Shown piece by piece: positions 23,101 to 63,824 of a DNA stretch of 64,000 nucleotides; position 1 is the stretch's first letter; the number at the start of each line of letters is the position of its first letter. The position numbers and the translations under genes were made by a program. Origin of the DNA: Sipunculus nudus (taxonomy: Eukaryota; Annelida; Sipuncula; Golfingiida; Sipunculidae); assembly GCA_026874595.1 (NCBI GenBank), contig CM049306.1, positions 16,887,019 to 16,951,018 of the forward strand. Reading direction: 5' to 3'. The notes under the pieces are model-generated. The model made no database searches and was not told the origin of the DNA. It was given only the letters and a program-made list of their open reading frames with translations.

Positions 23101-23815
23101 CAAAGTAAATGACATTTTAGACCAAAAGGTAGTACCAAAGTAAAGCAGTCAGTGTTTACATAAATTGAAGATAGACAAACAATGTGCAGATAAAATGTGT
23201 CAAGCTACACAAGTTCAATGTAACACACATGTAGCTTGTTGTGCACAGAATGGTTTGGACAACTTACCTAAACAAAAAAACTTATCCAGGGCAAACTTTC
23301 TCACAAGACAGCAAGATGAAAGTTATGTTTAACTGAAAACAACCACTGTGGGAAATGTCCTATCACTGAGGGAATCAACAAATTGAGCAAAAAAGTATAT
23401 TACTAACAGACATTTGTGCTGAGACACACCGGTTTCACCTTGAGAACCTCACCACAAACACCACAAGGCTTTTATTTGTGGTTATGGGAACATCATGAGA
23501 AATATCAAGTATTATTCACCTCCAAAATGAATAAACATACATTAATTATACTCTTAGGTTCATTCCTTTTCCACTTCTTTGATCATATATTTAATAAAAA
23601 CATACCTTTGCTTTGTCAAGGATGGACACATTTATCACTATACTTTGAGAGATGTTTTAAAGTGATAATGATAATTGGCAATTTGTGGCTCACTGGCTGA
23701 AATATCCCATGTGCAAGTGGGTGTGAAATGTTACATACCTTCCGCACCTGTACAGATCTACAAAATGTGTCAACAGGTACCTATTTCTTGGTTTATGTAT
23801 AAACATTGTACTTAC

Positions 23816-24171
23816 CATATAATCACATATACTGAGTGTTGCCTTAGAATCTGAGTGTTCATTCACTACACCACTATGGTAACAATGTCTGTAAGGTTCC
23901 GAATCGTTCAGCCAAGTTCTATTATGATCCAAGTATTGAAAAACCAATCCAGGTGCTATAAATTCAGACTGTGGCACCAGATGCAAATGAAGTTTACTTC
24001 CTGATAATTCTAACTGGAAGATCTTCTTAGAATTCCCTAACTGCTGATCTGCACTTAGATCCCGCTTTCCTCTTTGAAGGAAATGACTCTCTGGTGAGAC
24101 TGGCATCCCTTGCTCATCCACTCGTTTTGGAACCACAACTTGGAAATCCTTCCTGTGGTCTGTTGTTTTGT
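23816..24171 (-). CDS. ADAMTS-family metalloprotease, exon 2 (propeptide)
   Basis: This exon encodes most of the propeptide that keeps a secreted ADAMTS protease latent. The minus-strand acceptor is CTGTTTTGCAG, and the donor after ATTATATG is GTAAGTA. The 356 nt start with two bases that complete the codon begun in exon 1 (G+AC, Asp) and end in phase 0. The peptide opens KTTDHRKDFQVVVPKRVDEQG; the V-V-P-x-R-V-D-x-x-G core is the conserved start of the Pep_M12B_propep domain. It continues with LSGSKLHLHLVPQSEF and APGLVFQYLD, then CYHSGVV and SKATLSICDYM, which match the family pattern C-[YF]-x-G-x-V and [LI]-S-x-C-x-G-[LM]. Here Tyr replaces the usual Gly after Asp. An LQRGKRD stretch is basic but lies too early to be the main furin site. 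Confidence 0.93.
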
Positions 24172-27100
24172 CTGCAAAACAGATTTCAAGATAAAAGCTT
24201 CTGGCTCAATTTGTAAATACTTGAAGAAAATTCTATTTTCAGAATGATTAAACTATAATACTTCATACATTCATCGGAAATCAGCATCCTCCTCTGTTTA
24301 TTTATAGAACCACAGATGCATTAGACTGTTAAAGTTAATGATAACAAAATGGGATCTTATTACAGATCTGACATGAGAGCTCCATGGATGGATGAGAGCA
24401 AAGGGGCCAATGCAGGGTTTATAGCATTTGCCTCCAACCACCATTTTATACTGAAAGTATGTAAACATTAAAACATAATTATATATGGTCCTTGATTAAA
24501 AGGATTTATTTAAATCACACCTGGCTCTTAACAAGATTTATAATGTTGCATTTGGGTAAACAAGGAGCAAAATGTTTGTTTCATTTGAATTTTATTGCTC
24601 TTGCACCTGGATAAATCATCAGAACCTAAACATATAAACTGTCAGGAGATGTGAAAATGCTGTGTATATAATGAGCTACATTTGCAATGTCTGCATGACA
24701 TCGTTTTTTATAGTGCAATAAACTTAAGAGCACCAGACAATCTTTTCCTTGCTATGCAGAGTGGAAAATCATTACTTGTCATTATGTCTGAATAAACTCA
24801 TCACTAATTAAATCATTAAATCTAGATTAAATATAGGTCACACAACTTTGTGAGCATACATCTGTCTGCCCTTGAATTGGGAATTTTATATAAAAAAAAT
24901 TCAAAATGTATCTATGTAAGGTAAAGAAGTACATGTTTTCTGGATTATCAAAGCTGAAGATTAAATAACATGCCTTTCTTATCAATTTTTTTAATCAGAA
25001 AAAATGTTAAAAGGCTAATCAGTCCTTGCTCTTGGCTAAATATTGAATATCAGAAAAAAATATCATCAAAATGACAAGTTGAATTTCTGGATTACATATG
25101 ATACTCAGAAGCAGCATAGACCAGTAACAAGCAAACAGTAAGAACATTCCAGGATCATAGGGTGCACCCATAACAAAGGTGCTCCCACATAACTCAGACA
25201 TACCATACATTTACCTTGACAGTTACTACCCTTTAACCAACACTATACAGCACATTATCTTCCCTGGACTAGCTCCAGAGCTCCAGCATTCCAAACAATA
25301 AATAGGGTATCAATTGGATCTATACACTCACCCCTATTTCAATATACACACTGAGAAGTAGAACCCCAAATTATTCTCCTTGTACAAAGCTTAGGTTATA
25401 GATACAACAATGATTCTGTGCAATAAGGTTTATCATAAAGTAATTAAGTGATTACATTTATATCTTATTGCCAAAAATGAAAATCTATTAAATTTGAATT
25501 TTAAACTGATCAAGTCATGGAAAATATACACGTCATAGTACTGAACATCACTTACACACACTGAACATGAACTAAGCCTGTATCAGTATCATTTGGCCAT
25601 TTTACCCTTGGACGAGCCTTTTAAGGTGATTTTTTTTTTTCAATAAATGAGTGATATGTATATCATCACTACTATTTTTCAGATTGTTGAAAATCTGAAC
25701 TTATACAAAAGTCTTCAATCTTTTCATAATAATAATACTTCTGATACTTATCCATGTGAAATATTTTAAACTTAGGGTGAAAGAAATATTGATGACCCTA
25801 AACATAAACAAAAGTGCAGCTCATTAAAATTCATTATATCTTCTGTTACATCTATAAAGTCCTATCTCCTTTTTATTTACATATATAAAGCCTACACCCA
25901 GACTAGCTCTAAAATGTCTACAACAAAAATATATTCTATTACAACTGGCTTTCAAATAATATTAGCAATGATGTATCCTTATGAATTTAAACCTCAATGT
26001 AATGACAATCAAATATAACTAGAATTTATAGGATTATTTTTTTATTGATCTAAAATGGGTCTTTTTGGACTGCAAAGCAAACCAAGTCATACAAATTTGC
26101 TGAAAAGGGTCTGTCAAGTAAGCCGTTCTGGCTTCTATAGGTCAAAGTCACTCAAGTGAGCAAGGCTGGTTAGTTGTGTGAATAACAAATATACTCAGCA
26201 TACAAATTATCTGCACCACAATACTTGATCTGGGGCAAAGCACCTAAGTTAATTATAAGGTGTACAAACAACAGGTCTAAAGCATTTGCAGCCAATGTAA
26301 TATAGAGGGAGTATCCGGTCTTACAGGCATACCATTATCATACAGATCTCATTATTTCAAAGATTATATATTCATCACACAGTGTCTATTATTTCCCCAT
26401 AGAGAGAAATTACTTTTATAACAGGTTCATTATTAAGCCTGAGCACCAGCATTTCAGGTGACCCTACACCCTGCTCATGGGTGTAGGCAGCTTATTATTT
26501 TGTGACATTCAATTTGGTGTAACTATAATGTTCACAAATTGCTGACAGTGACTTCTTCAAAATGGAAAGCATTTGAAAAAAAAGCAGAAGTTAATTGGCT
26601 TAAATAAATCACTTGGCCAGGACTTGCATTTGAAATAAATACTTGACAGTTGAAAGACGGGAGTAGGTTAGGCCAGGAAAGGTGTACAGGCAGTTTGAGG
26701 GGATGTAGAGTTAAGCTTTTCAGGTACTTTGTACAATGGTCACTTTTGAGAAATTTTGAAACTATAAGCAATTTTCTCTTAAGCAATTTTCTCTTAAGCA
26801 ATCAAAATGGATTTATAAAAGTATGTGAACTTAATATCTAAGTATTTTGGGGGGGTATTTACATAAAACATACTTCTCATCTACATCACTAGCACAGAGA
26901 TTTGTGGCTGGATCCTGGATACACTGCACCTTAAATAGTGCCAATGTTTGACATGGCTTAATCATTAGCCTACTTTGAATGAAGACCTGTCAACTTGCCA
27001 AGCAATTGTGTTCTTTCACCAATCTCGACAATGATAAGTTTTCATTTATAAATGATACACAAAGAAAAAGGCTACCACATGCTTATGGCTATGATTATCC

Positions 27101-33680: not shown

Positions 33681-35850
33681 ATGACACTATTTCTGGAAAG
33701 CATATATAAGAAAGAAGCTCAGCTGAATAAGTCTTCCCCAGAGGGCGCTCCGTTGCTCTATACTATAGGCCTACACTCCGTGAAGAACGGAGAATATGAC
33801 ACAGTAGTCATTAAGATTTACCCTAATAATAAACCTTGGATCAATAGTGATCTAAGGAAACTTATTGTATGTAAGCACCAAGCCTTCACAAGCAATTCAG
33901 ATATGACTTACAAAAAGAAACTGATTCTGTCATTGAGAAAGCCAAACAACAATATAAAAAAAAGTAGAAAAACTGTTCCATAGCCAGCAATCAAAAGATG
34001 CTTGGAAGGGTCTTCAGGAATTAAATGGTATAACTAAAAGCAAGAAAGAATGCTCACTGCTTGCTGAAAATGGCTATGCTGACAAATTAAATACGTTCTA
34101 TGCGCGTTTTGATGAAAGTGACTTCTCAAAGGAAAACGATGAAATTCAGAGCAGTCTGAGAGCAAATTTAGAATCATGCGATGATAGCATCCTTACTGGT
34201 CTAACTGATGTAAACAAAGTGTTAAGTAAGATTAATGTAAAGAAAGCCTGTGGACCCGACAAAATCAGTGGCAGATTAATTAAAACCTGTAGAAATAGTT
34301 TGTCCTTCATCATACATCCCATTTTTCAATTGTCTCTCTCCTTATGTAAACTACCAAAACTATATAAGACCGCAGAAATAATTCCAGTCGCCAAAAATAA
34401 CTCTCCTGGAGTGATGAATGATCTTAGGCCTGTTGCACTTGCATCTATTCTCGCAAAATCTTTGGAGCGAATAGTTCTCAACAAATTACTTCCAATTGTT
34501 AAACCAATGCTAGATCAACATCAGTTTGCATATTCATCCAACAGGTGCACAAGCGACGCTATATATTGTCACATTAACTCATTATATTTATCAACACTTA
34601 GACAGGGACCCCATGCAGAAATTATGCCAGATCACTTTTCATTGATTATTCTTCAGCCTTCAATACAATACAGCCACACATTATGATCAATCAGCTCTGT
34701 AGGTATAACATTCCTCCTTCCTACTGTCTATGGATTCTAGATTTTCTCTCAGATTGAAGACAACATGTTAGAACAATTAAGCAAAGAGACTTCTTCAGAT
34801 ATAATCATAAATACTGGTGCTCCACAAGGCTGTGTTCTGTCAGCAGTCCTTTTTATTCTTAATAAAATAATTTGTCTGTGAGCCTTTCAGATTGTAAAAT
34901 TATCAAATATGCAGACGACACTGTCATTCTAGGCCTGATACAAAAGAATGATGAATCGCTCTACAGGAAAACCATTCAATATGTGACTGGTTGGAGTTAG
35001 GAACACTACCTTCAATTAATTGTGAAGAAGACTAAAGAAGTAGTCTTTGATTTTAGGAGATCAAAATCTGTAATTACCCCAGTTGCTATCAAAAATGAAG
35101 ATGTAGATATTGTAGAAAATTATAAATACTTAGGATGTATTATTGACAGGAATCTGAATTGGAAAGAACATGTGTTGAATCAATCCAAGAAAGCAAAAAA
35201 AAAAGATTATATTACCTTTATTATCTAAGAAAGCTAAATATTGACAAAACCATAATTACCATGTTTTATAATTCAGTAATTTCCAGTGTCCTTATACTTA
35301 TTCACTGGAGTGCTGGTTTACAAATATATCTGATAAGTTATAGAAAAAGTTAAATAATACCAGAAAGAGAAGTTGTAGAATAACTAGTATACTTCTCTTG
35401 CCACACACCAGGAAATCTGTGAAACCAAAACAATGGCCTTCATATCAAAGGTCATGAATGATACAACTCATCCCCTATATTCAGAGTTCCGTTTTTTACC
35501 TTCAGGTAAACGCCTAGATACAATATTCTCCAGAACAACTCGTTTTAAAAAATCTCTCGTACCATACAGTATTAAACTTTTTAACTCACAACCCTCTTAG
35601 ATATTTAATGTTTTGAATTATGTGTTTTTTACCTGCAGAATTATCTGTTTTATCAGTTTTACATGCTTATTTTTACATGCATAGTCAATATGATATGTGT
35701 TATTTTTAATGTAATTTTATGTATCATTTTTATGTATTTATCTATTTACTTGTCTATTTTTATGTAATGAATTGCAAGTCAGCGACAAATTCCTGGAAAT
35801 GAAGGCTAATAAATGTTATCTTATCTTATCTTATCTTAACTTATCTTGTC
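33681..35850 (+). mobile_element. Non-LTR retrotransposon remnant, CR1/Rex1-like, 5'-truncated
   Basis: Reverse-transcriptase motifs appear in order across shifted frames. KPWINSDL at about 33835 is the linker typical of Rex1/CR1 ORF2. Then come KACGPDKISG (about 34240), DLRPVAL (about 34420), HQFAYSSNR (about 34520), GAPQGCVLSAVL (about 34815), the catalytic YADDT (about 34905) and a C-terminal YLRKLNIDKTII...FYNSV region. Stops and frameshifts break it repeatedly, and the endonuclease domain is missing. It ends with repeats of TTATC (35816-35845), a short-repeat tail as in CR1-group elements, preceded by AATAAATG. It is inactive. Confidence 0.88.
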
Positions 35851-53284: not shown

Positions 53285-55260
53285 AAGATAAGGTAGGTGG
53301 CGCCACCTGTCTGGTTGACGAGAAAACTCTCCAAGATGGATGTACATGCCAAAATCGAGACCAACACATTGAAGGACTCTTCAGATGTATGCAATTTTCA
53401 TCTAAAACAAATGTACAGATTGACACAACACAAAAAAATAGCAGATGGCTCCACCAGTCATGCATACAAGATGGAGGAGGCAAAGATCTATGGTTAATGC
53501 ACAGTTTCAGGCAAATAGGGCAAATCACTCCTCAGAAAAGGGCATTTATTTATTTGTCTGGTTTACAAGAAAACTTTCCAAGACGGATGGACATGTCAAA
53601 TTTCAGACCAATACATTGAACCACACCGAAAGCACATGTACAGATGGACACCATGGCAAAACGACTGCATATGGCGCCACCAGTCTTGCCTATAAGATGG
53701 AGGAGTCCAAGATCTATGGATATGAACAATTTCAGGCCCATAGGCCAACTCACTCCTGAGTAAAGGGAATTAATTTTTTCTTAAAAAAAGGGAAGGAAGG
53801 TGGCGCCACCTGTCTGGTCTATGAGAAAATTTTCCACGATGAATGGACATGCCACATTTCAGACAAATACCTTGAACCACTGCGGAGATAAAAGCGATCT
53901 TCACCGTAAGCACATGTATAAATGAAGGCAATCGTAAAATGATTGCAGATGGCGCCACCAATCTTATGTACAAGGTGGAGGAGTCCAAGATCTACGGATA
54001 TGCACAGTTTCAGGCCAAATCACTCCTCAGAAAAGGGCATTAATTTATTCTACAAAAACGGGGAGGTTAGTGGCGCCACCTGTCTGGTTTATGAGAAAAC
54101 TTTCCACGATGGATGGACATGCCAAACTTTTAGACAAATACCTTAAACCACTCCGGAGTTATAAGCAATTTTCATCAGAAGCACATGTATAGATGGACGC
54201 CTAGGCAAAAAGATTGCAGATGGCACCACCATTCTTAAGTAAAAGATGGAGGAGTGCAAGATCTATGGATATGCACAATTTCAGGCCAATAGGGCAAATC
54301 ACTCCTCAGAAAAGGGCATTAATTTATTCTACATAAACAGGAAAGTAGGTGGCGCCACCTGTCTGGTTTACGAGAAAACTTACCAGGATGGATCGACATG
54401 TCAAATTTCAGATCAATACCTTGTACCACTCCGGAGATATGAGCAATTTTCACCCAAAGCACATGTACAGATGGACGCCACGGCAAACGATTGCAGATGG
54501 CGCCACCAGTCTTGAATACAAGATGGAGATATTCAAGATCAATGTACATGCACAATTTCAGCCCAGTCAGTCCATAAGTTTTAGACTTTTAATGCTCACA
54601 GTACTGTCAAGTGGCAATGATAGGGTATTAAAAGGCACGAAAACAAGTGAAAGACAGAAGGTGGCACCACCTGCCTTACGCAAAAGACAAAGCTATCCAA
54701 GATCTTCGGTCAATTTGATTTTTGGACCAATCCATGCATCCCTTGTTGAGATATTTGTAATTTTGTGTGATTTTCACCATATATGGCAATATTCAAGGTC
54801 AAGGCCACTCTCATAGGAAAGGTCATGATCCCAATTTAAAAATATATCATCCCATAACCCATGTCTATGTATATGCATAATATGAAAGAAATCTGTCTAT
54901 AAGTTATAATGGCCACAGTATTGTTAAGTGGCAATGAAGGGGGTATAAAATGGCACAAAAACAAGAAAAGGATAACAGGTGGCGCCACCAGTTTCCGATA
55001 CATGACAACACTATCCAAGATCTTTGGTCAAATTAATTTTTGGATCAATCCATGCAAGATTTCTTGAGATATTTAAGAATTTGTGTGATTTTTCCCCCAA
55101 AATGGACCTATTCAAGGCCAAGTCACTTTCCTAGTGTAGGTCATGACCCCAATTTTAAATAGGCTTTGTCCTCTCACCCATATCTATGCACATGTCAAGT
55201 TTGGTAAAGTTCTGTGACATATTTTTTGAGTTATCGCGTCCAAACGAAATCTCTGCGGCG
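53285..55260 (+). repeat. GGCGCC-array family, copy 3 (long tandem array)
   Basis: A dimeric tandem array. A units carry GGTGGCGCCACCTGTCTGGT and GAGAAAACT; B units carry GATGGCGCCACCAGTCTTG and AAGATGGAGGAGTCCAAGATC. Cores lie at 53299 (A), 53802 (A), 53951 (B), 54072 (A), 54222 (B, changed to GGCACC), 54351 (A) and 54499 (B), with a B unit also at about 53671. A to B is 148-150 bp and B to A is 121-129 bp, so the full period is about 270-279 bp. A second, related pair of about 318 bp follows, with cores near 54663 and 54981 (TATCCAAGATCTT, TTTTTGGA-CAATCCATGCA). Several ATG frames run through the units, but they reflect repetition of the DNA and not a protein. Confidence 0.88.
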
Positions 55261-57737: not shown

Positions 57738-58781
57738 CTATTTCCTTCTTGTAAACAGACAAGGGTACTCTGTGTCTGCCTCTCTTTTCTTGACACTGGA
57801 AGAACTTGATGAATCTTCATCAGCAGTCTCTGCATCTTCTATCTCAGCTTTGGCCCTAGCATAACAGTCCTGCAGCAGAGTTTCTTTGTGTTCAATAATA
57901 TCCTGTATATGAAAACAGAGTTTCTTATCTGATAAGCTATCTGAATCCTCACTCATCCATGGCATCTCTTTGACTAGTTTCATCAATACTTCTTTTATTT
58001 CTCTTAATCTCCTCTGTGCAGTTACATTAATATCAATTTTGTATTTACTGCAAAACTGCCGCAATGTCACTTTCCAGTTTGTGATGCAGTCAGCGGATTG
58101 CCAGGCAAGATACAGAGCTGCAGTGAGAACTGGTTCCCTGGCACAACCATATGCCAGCCATACATCCTTGCATAACTGTATTATTTTCATGGTGTAGTCA
58201 GAAATTGTCTGGTCTTCAATTCCAGTTTTGTTGCAAAACTCTGGAACCATTTCATCAACACATAGTGATCTTGCTTTCATTCCCATAGTTCTTTCTACAA
58301 GTTTTACTGCCCTTCCCAACTGGACCACATCACTTTTTAACAGACTTGCTATTTCCATGAGTCGCACTGGCCAATCATGTAACCGACAAACTAAATACAC
58401 ACATCCAGATGCTAAATTAAGTTTTAAATTGATTGGGTGTTTTCTGTATTTGGTATATACAGTGTTCATCATGTCTTTGCTTTCGTTTGTCATCTGTTCA
58501 TTCATTGATAAAACAGAACAAAGAGTGTTGACCCTGTTCTGTGCTTCTTTGGAACCTGCAGGAACTGCCCGGACGCTGTCATCAGCTCTGATAAAGTGGA
58601 CTGGCAGGGACGACAGGTAGCCCTTTGATCTGCCATCCGTTAAAGCACTGTTGTCCCAGCCGGCCTGGATATAGTCGACTGGTGACTCATCCAGCACGAA
58701 GCCACAGTCCACGCAAACCACCAGTACATCATCGTCTTTATCTAAGTTGACGCTTTTACAGGATGGACATGAAGCTGCCAT
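57738..58781 (-). CDS. BRF2: BRF2, TFIIIB subunit for RNA polymerase III type 3 promoters
   Basis: This gene encodes a TFIIB-like factor that joins TBP and BDP1 at SNAPc-dependent promoters (U6, 7SK and similar genes) to recruit RNA polymerase III in the nucleus. The 347-residue product opens with a zinc ribbon: Cys5, Cys8, Cys23 and Cys26 in CPSC and CVDCGFVLDE. Two cyclin-like repeats follow, at about 75-165 and 180-270, with LASGCVYLVCRLHDWP and LTAALYLAWQS as their core helices. The tail (about 275-347) is acidic and serine-rich (SSSSSS) and ends YPCLFTRRK. Human BRF2 is longer (about 419 residues), so the C-terminal region is shortened here. The whole frame is one exon, whereas vertebrate BRF2 has introns. 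The start ATG has a good context (ACA ATG G) and nothing longer is open upstream. No disabling mutation is seen, so an expressed gene is more likely than a retrocopy. Confidence 0.92.
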   Translation of the reverse strand: MAASCPSCKSVNLDKDDDVLVVCVDCGFVLDESPVDYIQAGWDNSALTDGRSKGYLSSLPVHFIRADDSVRAVPAGSKEAQNRVNTLCSVLSMNEQMTNESKDMMNTVYTKYRKHPINLKLNLASGCVYLVCRLHDWPVRLMEIASLLKSDVVQLGRAVKLVERTMGMKARSLCVDEMVPEFCNKTGIEDQTISDYTMKIIQLCKDVWLAYGCAREPVLTAALYLAWQSADCITNWKVTLRQFCSKYKIDINVTAQRRLREIKEVLMKLVKEMPWMSEDSDSLSDKKLCFHIQDIIEHKETLLQDCYARAKAEIEDAETADEDSSSSSSVKKREADTEYPCLFTRRK

Positions 58782-59786
58782 TGTTATACCCTCACTGTTA
58801 TCGTATTAACTTTACGATAAGCGATGTGAAAAAGCTACAACTGAACCTAACGTCCCTCCGTCATGCTTTCGAGTGTTGCTGAATTGTTTCATTCAGTGGC
58901 GCCGCCTATCGCTATATTTCATATGGACTTGTGCCAATACGTGTCGAATGTTAATCACCCGTATTCGCCTCTATCTTGTCAACATATAGCATGAATCCAA
59001 CTGACAATTTATTCGCAACATTTCACAGGTACACACTGTGCAAGATGAACTTCAAGTTTTTTAGTTCCGACAGCTGGCTGAACAAACCAGCAGGGAAAGG
59101 ACCAAGCTATGCATTGTTGAAATGGTATCGACTAACATTTAGATGTCGAAGTCGGGAGTTGGAAGTCCGACATGACAACATCATGAACATGTTGAGCCGT
59201 TGAGAGAACCGTGACTAAAGCCCCGATCATTTTCTGCATTGAAATGTGGAATATTGGCATGGAAATTCAGCAATAAGAATAAAATATAGAATAAAACTAA
59301 TATGGGAGTGATATTGATACTTAATTTTGGGATAATAAACTGGACCTTTATCTGTCCTTTGAATACATGAGTGAAAGCGAGAACGTGTGAATGGATGATA
59401 TTTTCTGCATATTAGGATTCCTTTTTGTCCAAAACTCATACCAAATATTTTATTTAGAAAATAAGCAAAATTGCTATGATAAATAAATTAATCAAGTGCT
59501 CTGTCCTGTATTAATAACAAGGGCGGACTGGGTCACCAGTGCCAAAAAGAAGAAGAGAGAAAAAAATATCCTGATGCTTGTGGACCAACGGGTATGAACT
59601 AAATATTGATGTCGGCTGGCCGATGGCATGAAACTTGGACCGCTCTTAATCAGATTTACAAGGCCTGTCCCCCGCCCCAGTCCGTCCCTGAATAAAACGC
59701 GAGAAAACCAATTTTATGTGAAAAATACCATATACTAAATAAAACAAAAATAAGTGACAGTCTGAAGATTCCAGGTCCTAAACACT
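58782..59786. other. BRF2 upstream region
   Basis: The first 200 bp are richer in CpG than the surroundings and include GTGGCGCCGCC at about 58899. A 75-codon plus-strand frame (58976-59203) lies divergently but has no known domain. No other feature. Confidence 0.4.
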
Positions 59787-61286: not shown

Positions 61287-61374
61287 GAGCCAAAGACAGT
61301 TTTCTTCTCTCAGCCTATTATCGCCCAAACGAGCCAAAGACAGTTTTCTTCTCTCAGCCTATTATCGCCCAAAC
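61287..61374 (+). repeat. 44-bp tandem duplication at a transposon target
   Basis: GAGCCAAAGACAGTTTTCTT and the next 24 bp occur twice without change (61287-61330 and 61331-61374). Each copy ends TCGCCCAAAC, and the second TCGCCCAAA (61365-61373) serves as the left target duplication of the foldback element. Confidence 0.95.
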
Positions 61375-61697
61375 GGTCGGTCTTTTTACCGAGCGCTAGC
61401 GCTCGGTTGGACTTTTTACCGAGCGCTACCCTGGATTCACACCAGGCATTGCTCTGACCCGCGTGGGGCTACCGAGCGCTCGGACTTCTTACCGAGCGCT
61501 ACCCTGCCCTAACAATGCAATGGGCAGTGTTTTTACATACTTTGGACTACCAAGCGCTAGGGACTTTTTACCGAGGGCTACCCTGGATTCACACCAGTCA
61601 TTGCTCTGACCCGGCAGGGGCTACCGAGCACTCGGACCTTTTTACCGACTCAGAGCGCTACCTTGTTCTAACAACGGGCAACGCGCAAACCATAGGC

Positions 61698-61709
<12 letters not shown>

Positions 61710-61750
<41 letters not shown>
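61710..61750 (+). repeat. (TG)n-(TA)n compound microsatellite
   Basis: Lies in the centre of the foldback element. Confidence 0.95.
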
Positions 61751-61755
<5 letters not shown>

Positions 61756-61879
61756 TACGATAAACATACATATAAATTCAACATATATATGTTTAAATAC
61801 ATTTATTAATATATCAGTAGCCTATATAAATATAATATATAATTAAAATTATGCTATATATTTATATATATATATATCA

Positions 61880-61892
<13 letters not shown>

Positions 61893-61948
<56 letters not shown>

Positions 61949-62090
61949 CGAGCGAAAGAGACAATGTAAAGAAAAAGAGAGCGCTATACCATAGCCTATA
62001 TAATATTTATCCGATATAGGCTATAAAGGAGAGAGAGAGAAAGAATGAAAGAGAGAGAAAGAAAGAGAGACAGACAGAGAGAGAGAAGAA
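61893..62090 (+). repeat. (TA)n, then (GA)n-rich tract
   Basis: A TA run (61893-61926), then GAGA runs with interruptions, form the right half of the foldback centre. Confidence 0.9.
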
Positions 62091-62578
62091 CCTGAAAAAA
62101 GTTCTTAGCGCTCGTTAGTCCCAAGCCCAAGATGTTTGAAGTATGTAAGAACACTTAATTCCCGTTGTAAGAGCAGGGTAACGCTCGGTAAAAAGTCCCA
62201 AGCGCTCGGTAGCCCCACGTGGGTCAAAGCAATGACTTGTGTGACCCCAGGGTAGCGCTCGGTAAAAAGTCCGAGCGCTAGGTAGCCCCATGCTGGTCAA
62301 AGCGATGCCTGGTGTGAATCCGGGGTAGCGCTCAGTAAAAAGTCCGAGCGCTCGGTAGCCCCATGCTGGTCAAAGCGATGCCTGGTGTGAATCCAGGGTA
62401 GCGCTCGGTAAAAAGTCCTACCGAGCGCTAGCACTCGGTAGCGCTCGGTAGCGCTCGGTAAAAAGACCAATCCTCGCCCAAATACTTCAGAGAATTTGGG
62501 GACTCTGACATTTGTAATATAATATACTATTTATTATCCACTTGTCCTAATATACTTTGACAAGGATGTTTGGCCGAA

Positions 62579-62776: not shown

Positions 62777-63799
62777 ACATTATCTAGCAAACATACCCTT
62801 ACCTACGACTCCTTACTTGTTTTCTTGCTCAAATAAGAAAATGAAACATATAATCCAGGTTCAAAGTTAAGAAGCGATGCTCGCAGTTTTCTAACCAAAC
62901 ATGATATGTTGCTTTAGGGTCAAGGACACAGGGAGAAGCCAGTTTTCAAATTCCTTTCTCTGACTGGCTGTTTGGTTTCAGTCTCATTCATCTTGGGAAT
63001 CCAACTTAATTCCAAGCATAACATTTACTGCCTGGTCCCTAAAATAGTGCCATCTAGTGAATAAAACAGAAAGTGCAAGCAAAACAATGGTTCCAAGCGG
63101 GGGTGGTTGCCACCTGCAAATTTTCTCGTTTTCACTTATTAGAAATGGTTCACACACCAAGTAAAGACCAACGTTTGTTTATTTTAAGCTTATTATCTAA
63201 TTTATCTAAATATCTGTGTCCTCGCTCGCACACCAATATTTTCAAGAGTGCTCGTAAGTCTCGCTGGGAGGCTTACTAAGTAGGCTACCCTTGGTGGCTA
63301 GCCGAAATATAGAATTTGTCCTACGCTTCCAGTCTAATGTCTACCTGTGCACTTCTGACATTCATCATAGATAGGTAGATCAGAAAAAATTGACATTTAA
63401 ATATTTTCTAACAAATTTGGTATCATTGGATAGGAAATGTGATGAATAACATGTTTGTTTTTAATATGATTTGAAAACATTATTAAATTCAGAGATATTT
63501 CAGAAAAACAACTCTTGAATTTGAGTGAACTTTGCCCGATTGAATGGGACTCAATATTATTAGGCCCTGCCATATATTGAGTCGATAGCCATACAGTGAG
63601 AGTTTCTACAATATAAGCTTGGACTACACGCCACCAAATGCCCTTGTAACCAGTATCAACAGGTGTTTATTACCCTCGCGTGCAGTCATTCTTCAGCGCC
63701 GGGCCTGTTGAAACAAAATGTATCAACATTTTAGCTGTCAATCACTCGAGTCAGCGGGCTATCAGTGAGGTTATCAAGTGCACCTGTTCGACTGTTCTT
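62777..63799. other. Intergenic or gene-upstream sequence
   Basis: Moderate CpG near 63660-63780, just before the putative start codon at 63825. No repeat with definable ends. Confidence 0.35.
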
Positions 63800-63824
63800 C
63801 TCTGTCCCTACTAAACTCGCTGAC

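Follow-up and report, generated by a model that had tools for sequence, protein, structure and literature searches.

A dispersed foldback transposon family in Sipunculus nudus with a sequence link to MULEs and an SGNH-NADAR gene in longer copies

The stretch of DNA analysed here (the window) comprises 64,000 nt of Sipunculus nudus, positions 16,887,019-16,951,018 of CM049306.1 (C1 below) in assembly GCA_026874595.1 (1.43 Gb, 153 contigs), with 36.4% G+C and a CpG observed/expected ratio of 0.45. A single 355-aa open frame on the minus strand at 57738-58805 encodes a BRF2-type TFIIIB subunit (PF21886), the nearest solved chain being the Transcription factor IIIB 50 kDa subunit; a Reprolysin-family propeptide (PF01562) at 23690-24205, also on the minus strand, is probably an ADAM/ADAMTS-like exon; a plus-strand reverse-transcriptase fragment at 33958-34686 (RVT_1, below cut-off) is probably from a LINE; and a 278-bp tandem repeat of 3.4 copies at 53624-54565 overlaps a 155-aa open frame. 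The feature under study is a non-autonomous foldback element at 61374-62473 on the plus strand, with its 5' C-end on the left and its 3' end on the right.

The element is flanked by exact 9-bp copies of TCGCCCAAA at 61365-61373 and 62474-62482, as the initial annotation had proposed, and a count on the sequence bears out the agreement that it gave for the inverted ends, 21 of 24 positions, the mismatches falling at positions 1, 3 and 5. The left arm (61374-61693, plus strand, inner limit approximate) consists of an outer ACCGAGCGCT hairpin segment followed by GGACTTTTTACCGAGCGCTACC... units with spacings of 73 and 79 bp, and the right arm (62106-62473, minus strand) of 73-bp units (TRF 62174-62418, 3.3 copies) with outer 10-bp TAGCGCTCGG repeats at 62429-62460; the right end reads GACCAATCC in this copy and GACCGACCC in the majority of tabulated copies. 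Both arms are rich in ACCGAGCGCT/AGCGCTCGGT, as first described, although the unit that builds them is 73-74 bp long (TRF period 73, 3.3 copies; spacings 73 and 73) and not the roughly 92 bp originally estimated. Within one mismatch, TACCGAGCGCT occurs at 20 sites in the window, all 20 inside the element, against an expectation of 0.06, and the best match between the two arms extends over 118 nt at 93% complementarity. When the outermost 60 nt are folded as single-stranded DNA, the hairpin segments fold far better than shuffles (left, -19.2 kcal/mol, z -6.50; right, -17.9 kcal/mol, z -4.85), and a single 73-nt unit is not exceptional against its shuffles (z -1.35). Between the arms lies a core (61694-62105, limits approximate) of TA/TG and GA microsatellites and short family-specific stretches in which no coding was found. 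The element as a whole gives no sign of a transposase gene, its longest stop-to-stop frame being 101 aa and none of 13 transposase proteins or pieces matching it, in agreement with its earlier description as non-autonomous.

The left flank contains an exact 44-bp tandem duplication (61287-61374; copies 61287-61330 and 61331-61374), and because this repeats the left-flank copy, TCGCCCAAA is present three times. Since the last base of the 44-bp unit is the first base, C, of the element, the tandem duplication is probably younger than the insertion. Of 200,000 random 1.1-kb spans drawn from the window, 286 had some 9-mer in common between their 19-bp flanks, so that the 9-bp duplication at this site is, taken alone, suggestive; the family-wide data described next settle the matter.

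The element is one copy of a dispersed mobile family. Exact copies of a 23-bp end, GGTCGGTCTTTTTACCGAGCGCT, number 125 in the assembly, of which 62 are forward and 63 reverse (control, 0), and a 20-bp end within two mismatches occurs 238 times forward and 259 times reverse, 497 in total (control, 1 + 1); a 19-bp piece of the family end has no exact match in viral contigs. A search of the genome itself returned 326 match rows and 853 first-look candidates, 40 of them scored. We examined 42 distinct places (the window, L009-L028, L039-L058 and L060), taken mostly from the top of two match lists and hence biased toward copies with well-kept ends. An end pair was found at 36 of them, L020, L025, L026, L054, L055 and L057 having been dropped before counting for want of a clean pair, and for L040, L051, L053 and L058, which offered several possible pairs, the outermost was used. 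A further locus fetched for another reason, L059, has a single family end only. Among the 36 copies, exact target duplications measure 8 bp in 18 and 9 bp in 7, with none exact at 10-12 bp; duplications with one mismatch add three of 8 bp, two of 9 bp and one of 10 bp, and five copies have none. Mismatched pairings of left and right flanks (1260 in all) yielded no exact match of 7-10 bases and two 8-mers with one mismatch. The 9-bp duplication that the initial annotation took as characteristic is therefore real but belongs to a minority class. Its broader picture of a dispersed family with target duplications and a varying number of units is upheld by the exact ends, the end pairs and the unit counts given below.

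The ends of the family are fixed and asymmetric, 5'-CGGTCGG... and ...CCGACCC-3' (5'-CGGTCGGTCTTTTTACC...GGTAAAAAGACCGACCC-3'). Read in the orientation of the element, 35 of 36 copies begin with C and all 36 finish with C; the 5' end starts CGG in 34 (the others, one TGG and one CCG), and the 3' end begins GG in 35 (one GA). The asymmetry is thus a property of the element. The smallest copy measures 874 bp and the largest 8698 bp; nested inserts or different cores occur in several of the longest, and two copies (L043 and L044) have in common a further core of roughly 1.5 kb with 97% overall identity. Unit markers number 2-8 in the left arm and 2-9 in the right, approximate counts that in a few copies include unit-like matches outside the arms. 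Where arms could be aligned over at least 200 bp (26 of 36 copies), mean identity is 93.5% between left arms (257 pairs) and 90.9% between right arms (226 pairs); left and right arms are 84.6% identical within a copy (16 pairs) and 84.2% between copies (377 pairs). Left arms are thus closer to the left arms of other copies than to their own right arm, which suggests that one already differentiated master spread, and we infer that the arms diverged from each other before the copies dispersed.

Two insertions have visible empty sites. One, L018 on C3, interrupts a dispersed repeat of which an uninterrupted relative lies inside the window (63534-63820, minus strand); in this diverged empty site both flanks adjoin and the duplicated bases occur once, somewhat diverged. 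The other, L060, lies within a 46-bp tandem array, which provides a direct uninterrupted site, and its duplication is GAACACAG. Two features of the foldback class are present: long inverted arms of tandem units whose number varies from copy to copy, and insertions scattered through the genome that show target duplications and empty sites.

Three longer copies with the same ends connect the family to a transposase. L040 (C14) measures 5.4 kb, L041 (C1) 3.9 kb and L042 (C1) 2.6 kb; the first is flanked by an exact duplication of 8 bp and the last by one of 9 bp, with none seen for L041. They have in common a long core, mostly 93-98% identical and unlike the window-type core, from which different large deletions have been taken. 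In L042, 296-712 bp from the 5' end, a 139-residue open stretch corresponds to the C-terminal part of a MULE transposase: among 13 queries compared with the 36 elements, the only match below E 0.5 was that between this peptide and L060b, a MULE piece of the same genome (31% over 89 aa, E 6e-5 for that query). The peptide contains TNNNAESANHILK, where the aligned residues of L060b are TNKSIESFN; the pattern TNN..E..[NH], which we take to mark the catalytic glutamate, is found in four of eight MULE proteins or pieces (L037, L036, L033 and L029) and in none of five Merlin proteins. Pfam gives no MULE match for the peptide, perhaps because PF10551 (99 positions) covers another part of the protein, and what assigns it to MULEs is homology to PF10551-bearing proteins and loci. 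Of its 85 matches in the genome, 10 lie near PF10551 MULE matches on the same strand (C1:11546763, C3:47639851, C4:56381908, C6:12967172, C6:58345598, C8:1285267, C10:64541577, C11:73938830, C12:52897140 and C17:26671516), and at three of these the peptide and PF10551 searches report the same open-frame length (C3, 446 aa; C6:58345598, 903 aa; C17, 395 aa).

At one of these loci, on C8, an exact 20-bp family end at 1284665 is followed by the C-terminal part at 1285267-1285575 (55%, one stop) and a MULE domain at 1285910-1286200, which places the domain 1.2 kb inside the family end. A co-location test, in which 150 of 252 MULE and 150 of 209 Merlin candidates were scored and 100 of the 125 exact ends were listed, placed none of 131 MULE-domain matches within 20 kb inside 115 listed ends; that set predates the C8 end, and the empty result counts against the MULE reading unless this end is counted. 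No intact transposase lies between intact family ends among the copies examined, so that the initial annotation's expectation of a MULE transposase with these ends is borne out by a remnant inside L042 and not by an intact gene. The best candidate loci for a MULE gene with family ends are C10:37451572-37453888 and C8:1284665-1286200.

Several other elements came under consideration. The longest copy, L039 (8.7 kb), is not autonomous, the frames of its insert (926, 391 and 341 aa) resembling Gypsy pol and gag by eye. A MULE of about 6.6 kb adjoining L060 (L061/L060, C5:49440831-49447440), with SWIM and PHD matches that are weak and below threshold, is bounded by 313-bp inverted ends of its own (GGGACACACTGAAACCCGGGCCC) and lies side by side with the family copy in the 46-bp array; it was rejected as the partner of the family. 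L036 holds at 1-2799 a second foldback-like MULE with a 308-aa MULE frame, GA-rich inverted tandem arms and ends TTTAAGTGTAATACAAACATT; it represents a different family, and its matches to the window family are simple repeats. L037 encodes at 946-2328 an open 461-aa FLYWCH + MULE (Phantom-type) protein, with no inverted ends found in the stretch examined. Family ends are absent from the L036 and L037 stretches examined.

The common long core also carries a second gene. On its opposite strand, L040 contains a piece resembling SGNH/GDSL hydrolases, which falls short of the curated cut-off (PF13472, E 3e-4), and a NADAR domain, which exceeds it (PF08719, E 1.6e-15; nearest solved structure YbiA, E 1.4e-9), the two in offset frames, and an intron, GTAAGC...TTTCAG, upstream of the fusion exon joins the reading frame. 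At loci on C7, C12 and C16 a single open frame, of 290, 290 and 300 aa respectively, spans the SGNH and NADAR parts, although on C16 NADAR is matched at its end in a different frame, the frame being open over most of its length. The C7 locus is, in outline and by position only, a complete element, with ends at 5653884 and 5658343 enclosing SGNH at 5655677, NADAR at 5656070-5656546 and, on the opposite strand, the final codons of the transposase (5657795-5657872). On C12 an end at 65904387 is followed by the C7-type order, the other end being absent among the ends listed; C16 has the same order, and C10 has a partial NADAR match (90%) with a transposase part (93%) that contains one stop, both without ends among those listed. 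The last 26 residues of the L042 peptide, opposite the SGNH-NADAR gene, recur in L041 and at C7, C12 and C16 with 96-100% conservation, so that the gene is convergent with the last transposase codons in a fixed position at four loci. The deletions took different parts: L042 keeps the transposase part and has lost the SGNH-NADAR coding part, and L041 retains NADAR along with the final 26 residues of the transposase. These sequences show longer copies that have the family ends, have been reduced by internal deletion and carry the C-terminal part of a MULE transposase or the convergent SGNH-NADAR gene. This sequence link to MULEs and the SGNH-NADAR gene are new relative to the initial annotation, whose foldback and Mutator-like reading is supported; the window copy is ordinary for its kind, and the gene-carrying subfamily is the unusual part.

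We tentatively propose that the family descends from a two-gene animal MULE in which a transposase gene read inward from the 5' C-end and a spliced SGNH-NADAR gene, convergent with it, was a resident component as opposed to a chance capture. In the gene-carrying subfamily the transposase has been pared down, at four loci to roughly its 26 final codons, and the SGNH-NADAR frame is open at C7 and C12 and over most of its length at C16, as if the protein helped the element or its host; the protein would perhaps act on NAD/ADP-ribose or on ADP-ribosylated nucleic acid. Against a resident gene stands the idea of recent capture from the host in the manner of Pack-MULEs, which we regard as a rather doubtful though reasonable alternative. 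The intron leans toward it, because the GT...AG intron of L040 joins the frame as that of a captured gene would, and MULEs tend to acquire fragments of host genes (PMC6446971, in the part cited). However, no single-copy host source was recognised, eight of the nine SGNH-piece matches in the genome lying beside NADAR matches, and the fixed convergent position relative to the last transposase codons recurs at four loci. Four of the nine matches are 95-100% identical, two of which lie between family ends (C14, as read; C7, by position), and five are diverged (48-68%), with stops in four. That no host source is evident and that the diverged copies are decayed both lean toward a resident second gene. 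Derivation of the NADAR piece from a LINE ORF1 was judged unlikely, as an intron splits the gene.

Which enzyme moves the family is a separate question. MULEs are defined by target duplications of 8-11 bp (PMC6446971, in the part cited), the range into which all 25 exact duplications fall, but by itself a mixture of 8 and 9 bp fits Merlin as well as MULEs, because the MULE Muta1 also makes 8 or 9 bp (PMC5225508, in the excerpt used). A Merlin (IS1595-type) transposase, with the L042 fragment a mere passenger, would accordingly account for the duplications, and Merlin domains with open frames exist in the S. nudus genome; we nevertheless find it improbable. Merlin elements are described, in the accessible portion of the source, as making 8- or 9-bp duplications and having inverted ends of 24-462 bp that start 5'-GG (PMC8101967), whereas the family starts with C at its 5' end in 35 of 36 copies. 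No DDE_Tnp_IS1595 transposase was seen between family ends among the matches listed, where none of 110 chromosomal Merlin-domain matches fell within 20 kb inside the 115 listed ends; five Merlin loci of about 3 kb lack the family ends, and five Merlin proteins found no match in the 36 elements. Separately, 40 of the 150 scored IS1595-type transposase matches lie on small contigs C101-C138, many with equal scores, and these contigs are possibly bacterial and rich in insertion sequences. Local inverted duplication of a minisatellite without transposition, the refuting case named at the outset, has in its favour the minisatellite-like arms and the 44-bp tandem duplication in the left flank and is as good as ruled out by dispersed copies with fixed ends, exact target duplications in 25 of 36 and two empty sites.

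We therefore consider it very probable that the window copy is a non-autonomous cut-and-paste transposon of a MULE-lineage foldback family moved by a MULE transposase; by its sequence relationships it is a non-autonomous derivative of that lineage. A MULE transposase encoded elsewhere would bind the ends and perhaps also, as extra sites, the TTTTTACCGAGCGCTA boxes repeated in the arm units, by analogy with Galileo, for which additional binding sites in arm repeats are reported in the excerpts used (PMC4079207; PMC3688188). It would cut with a stagger of 8-9 bp and move the arms together with any core, so that cores would travel as passengers, the core of window-type copies being presumably microsatellite filler, and arm units would be gained and lost through slippage or unequal exchange.

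Among described elements, Tm1, a Mutator/Foldback element of root-knot nematodes, resembles the family most fully: as reported in the excerpted account, it has foldback arms of tandem units, asymmetric outermost bases, duplications of 8-10 bp and mostly non-autonomous copies with a rare MULE-encoding member (PMC3169594). Its outer bases, 5'-CGGTTAA...CCTACCC-3' as against 5'-CGGTCGG...CCGACCC-3', are alike in the outermost four at each end, a likeness, including the asymmetry of the first base, that we treat as a resemblance and not a test. The differences lie in the arm unit (73-74 bp in the family, about 14 bp in Tm1), in the prevailing length of exact duplications (8 bp, as against 9 bp in Tm1), in the transposase, since Tm1-A encodes a FLYWCH-MULE (Phantom-like) protein and the family is known by the C-terminal part alone, and in the SGNH-NADAR gene, none being described for Tm1 in the portion of the report cited (PMC3169594). 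Muta1, an active MULE of Aedes aegypti, likewise generates 8- or 9-bp duplications without sequence preference, as shown in yeast, but is autonomous, with demonstrated activity and no tandem-unit arms described in the excerpted text (PMC5225508). Rehavkus shares with the family a MULE-related transposase, a similar duplication length and, in Rehavkus-1_TC, a tandem repeat in the inverted termini; 9-bp duplications and a PHD finger are given as its features, according to the parts of the sources used (PMC6446971, PMC10218199). In the family the 8-bp class prevails over the 9-bp class, 18 to 7, and a PHD finger has no match in the 139-aa C-terminal part, the only part of its transposase known. 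Muta1 is a Phantom-type element. The sole support for that placement is the clade name Phantom_Muta2 (PMC13359780).

Tetris of Drosophila virilis is, like the window copy, a non-autonomous foldback element with tandem-unit arms and duplications of 8-10 bp, but its units measure 220 bp and, in the excerpted report, its transposase was not found, so that it is assigned to Mutator by duplication length and precedent (PMC4079207). Foldbacks of this type have been filed by duplication length with the transposase missing; here the link to MULEs comes through the sequence of deletion derivatives that have the same ends. For the second gene, no published MULE with a NADAR gene was found among the matches listed in open-licence PMC literature, and a search of that literature for 'NADAR domain' with 'transposable element' found only the Ectocarpus study (PMC12477816). 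In the part of that study cited, Gypsy elements of Ectocarpus and Tx1 LINEs of Crassostrea gigas are, like the longer copies of the family, transposable elements with a YbiA-type NADAR domain; these are retrotransposons, in contrast to the DNA transposon described here, in which NADAR is fused to an SGNH-like domain and an intron lies upstream of the fusion exon (PMC12477816). If the SGNH-NADAR gene is indeed resident, a NAD/ADP-ribose domain of one type would have been taken up by a DNA transposon as well as by some Gypsy and Tx1 elements, which would point to a need that transposons share and offer a testable role for a domain whose function is poorly known.
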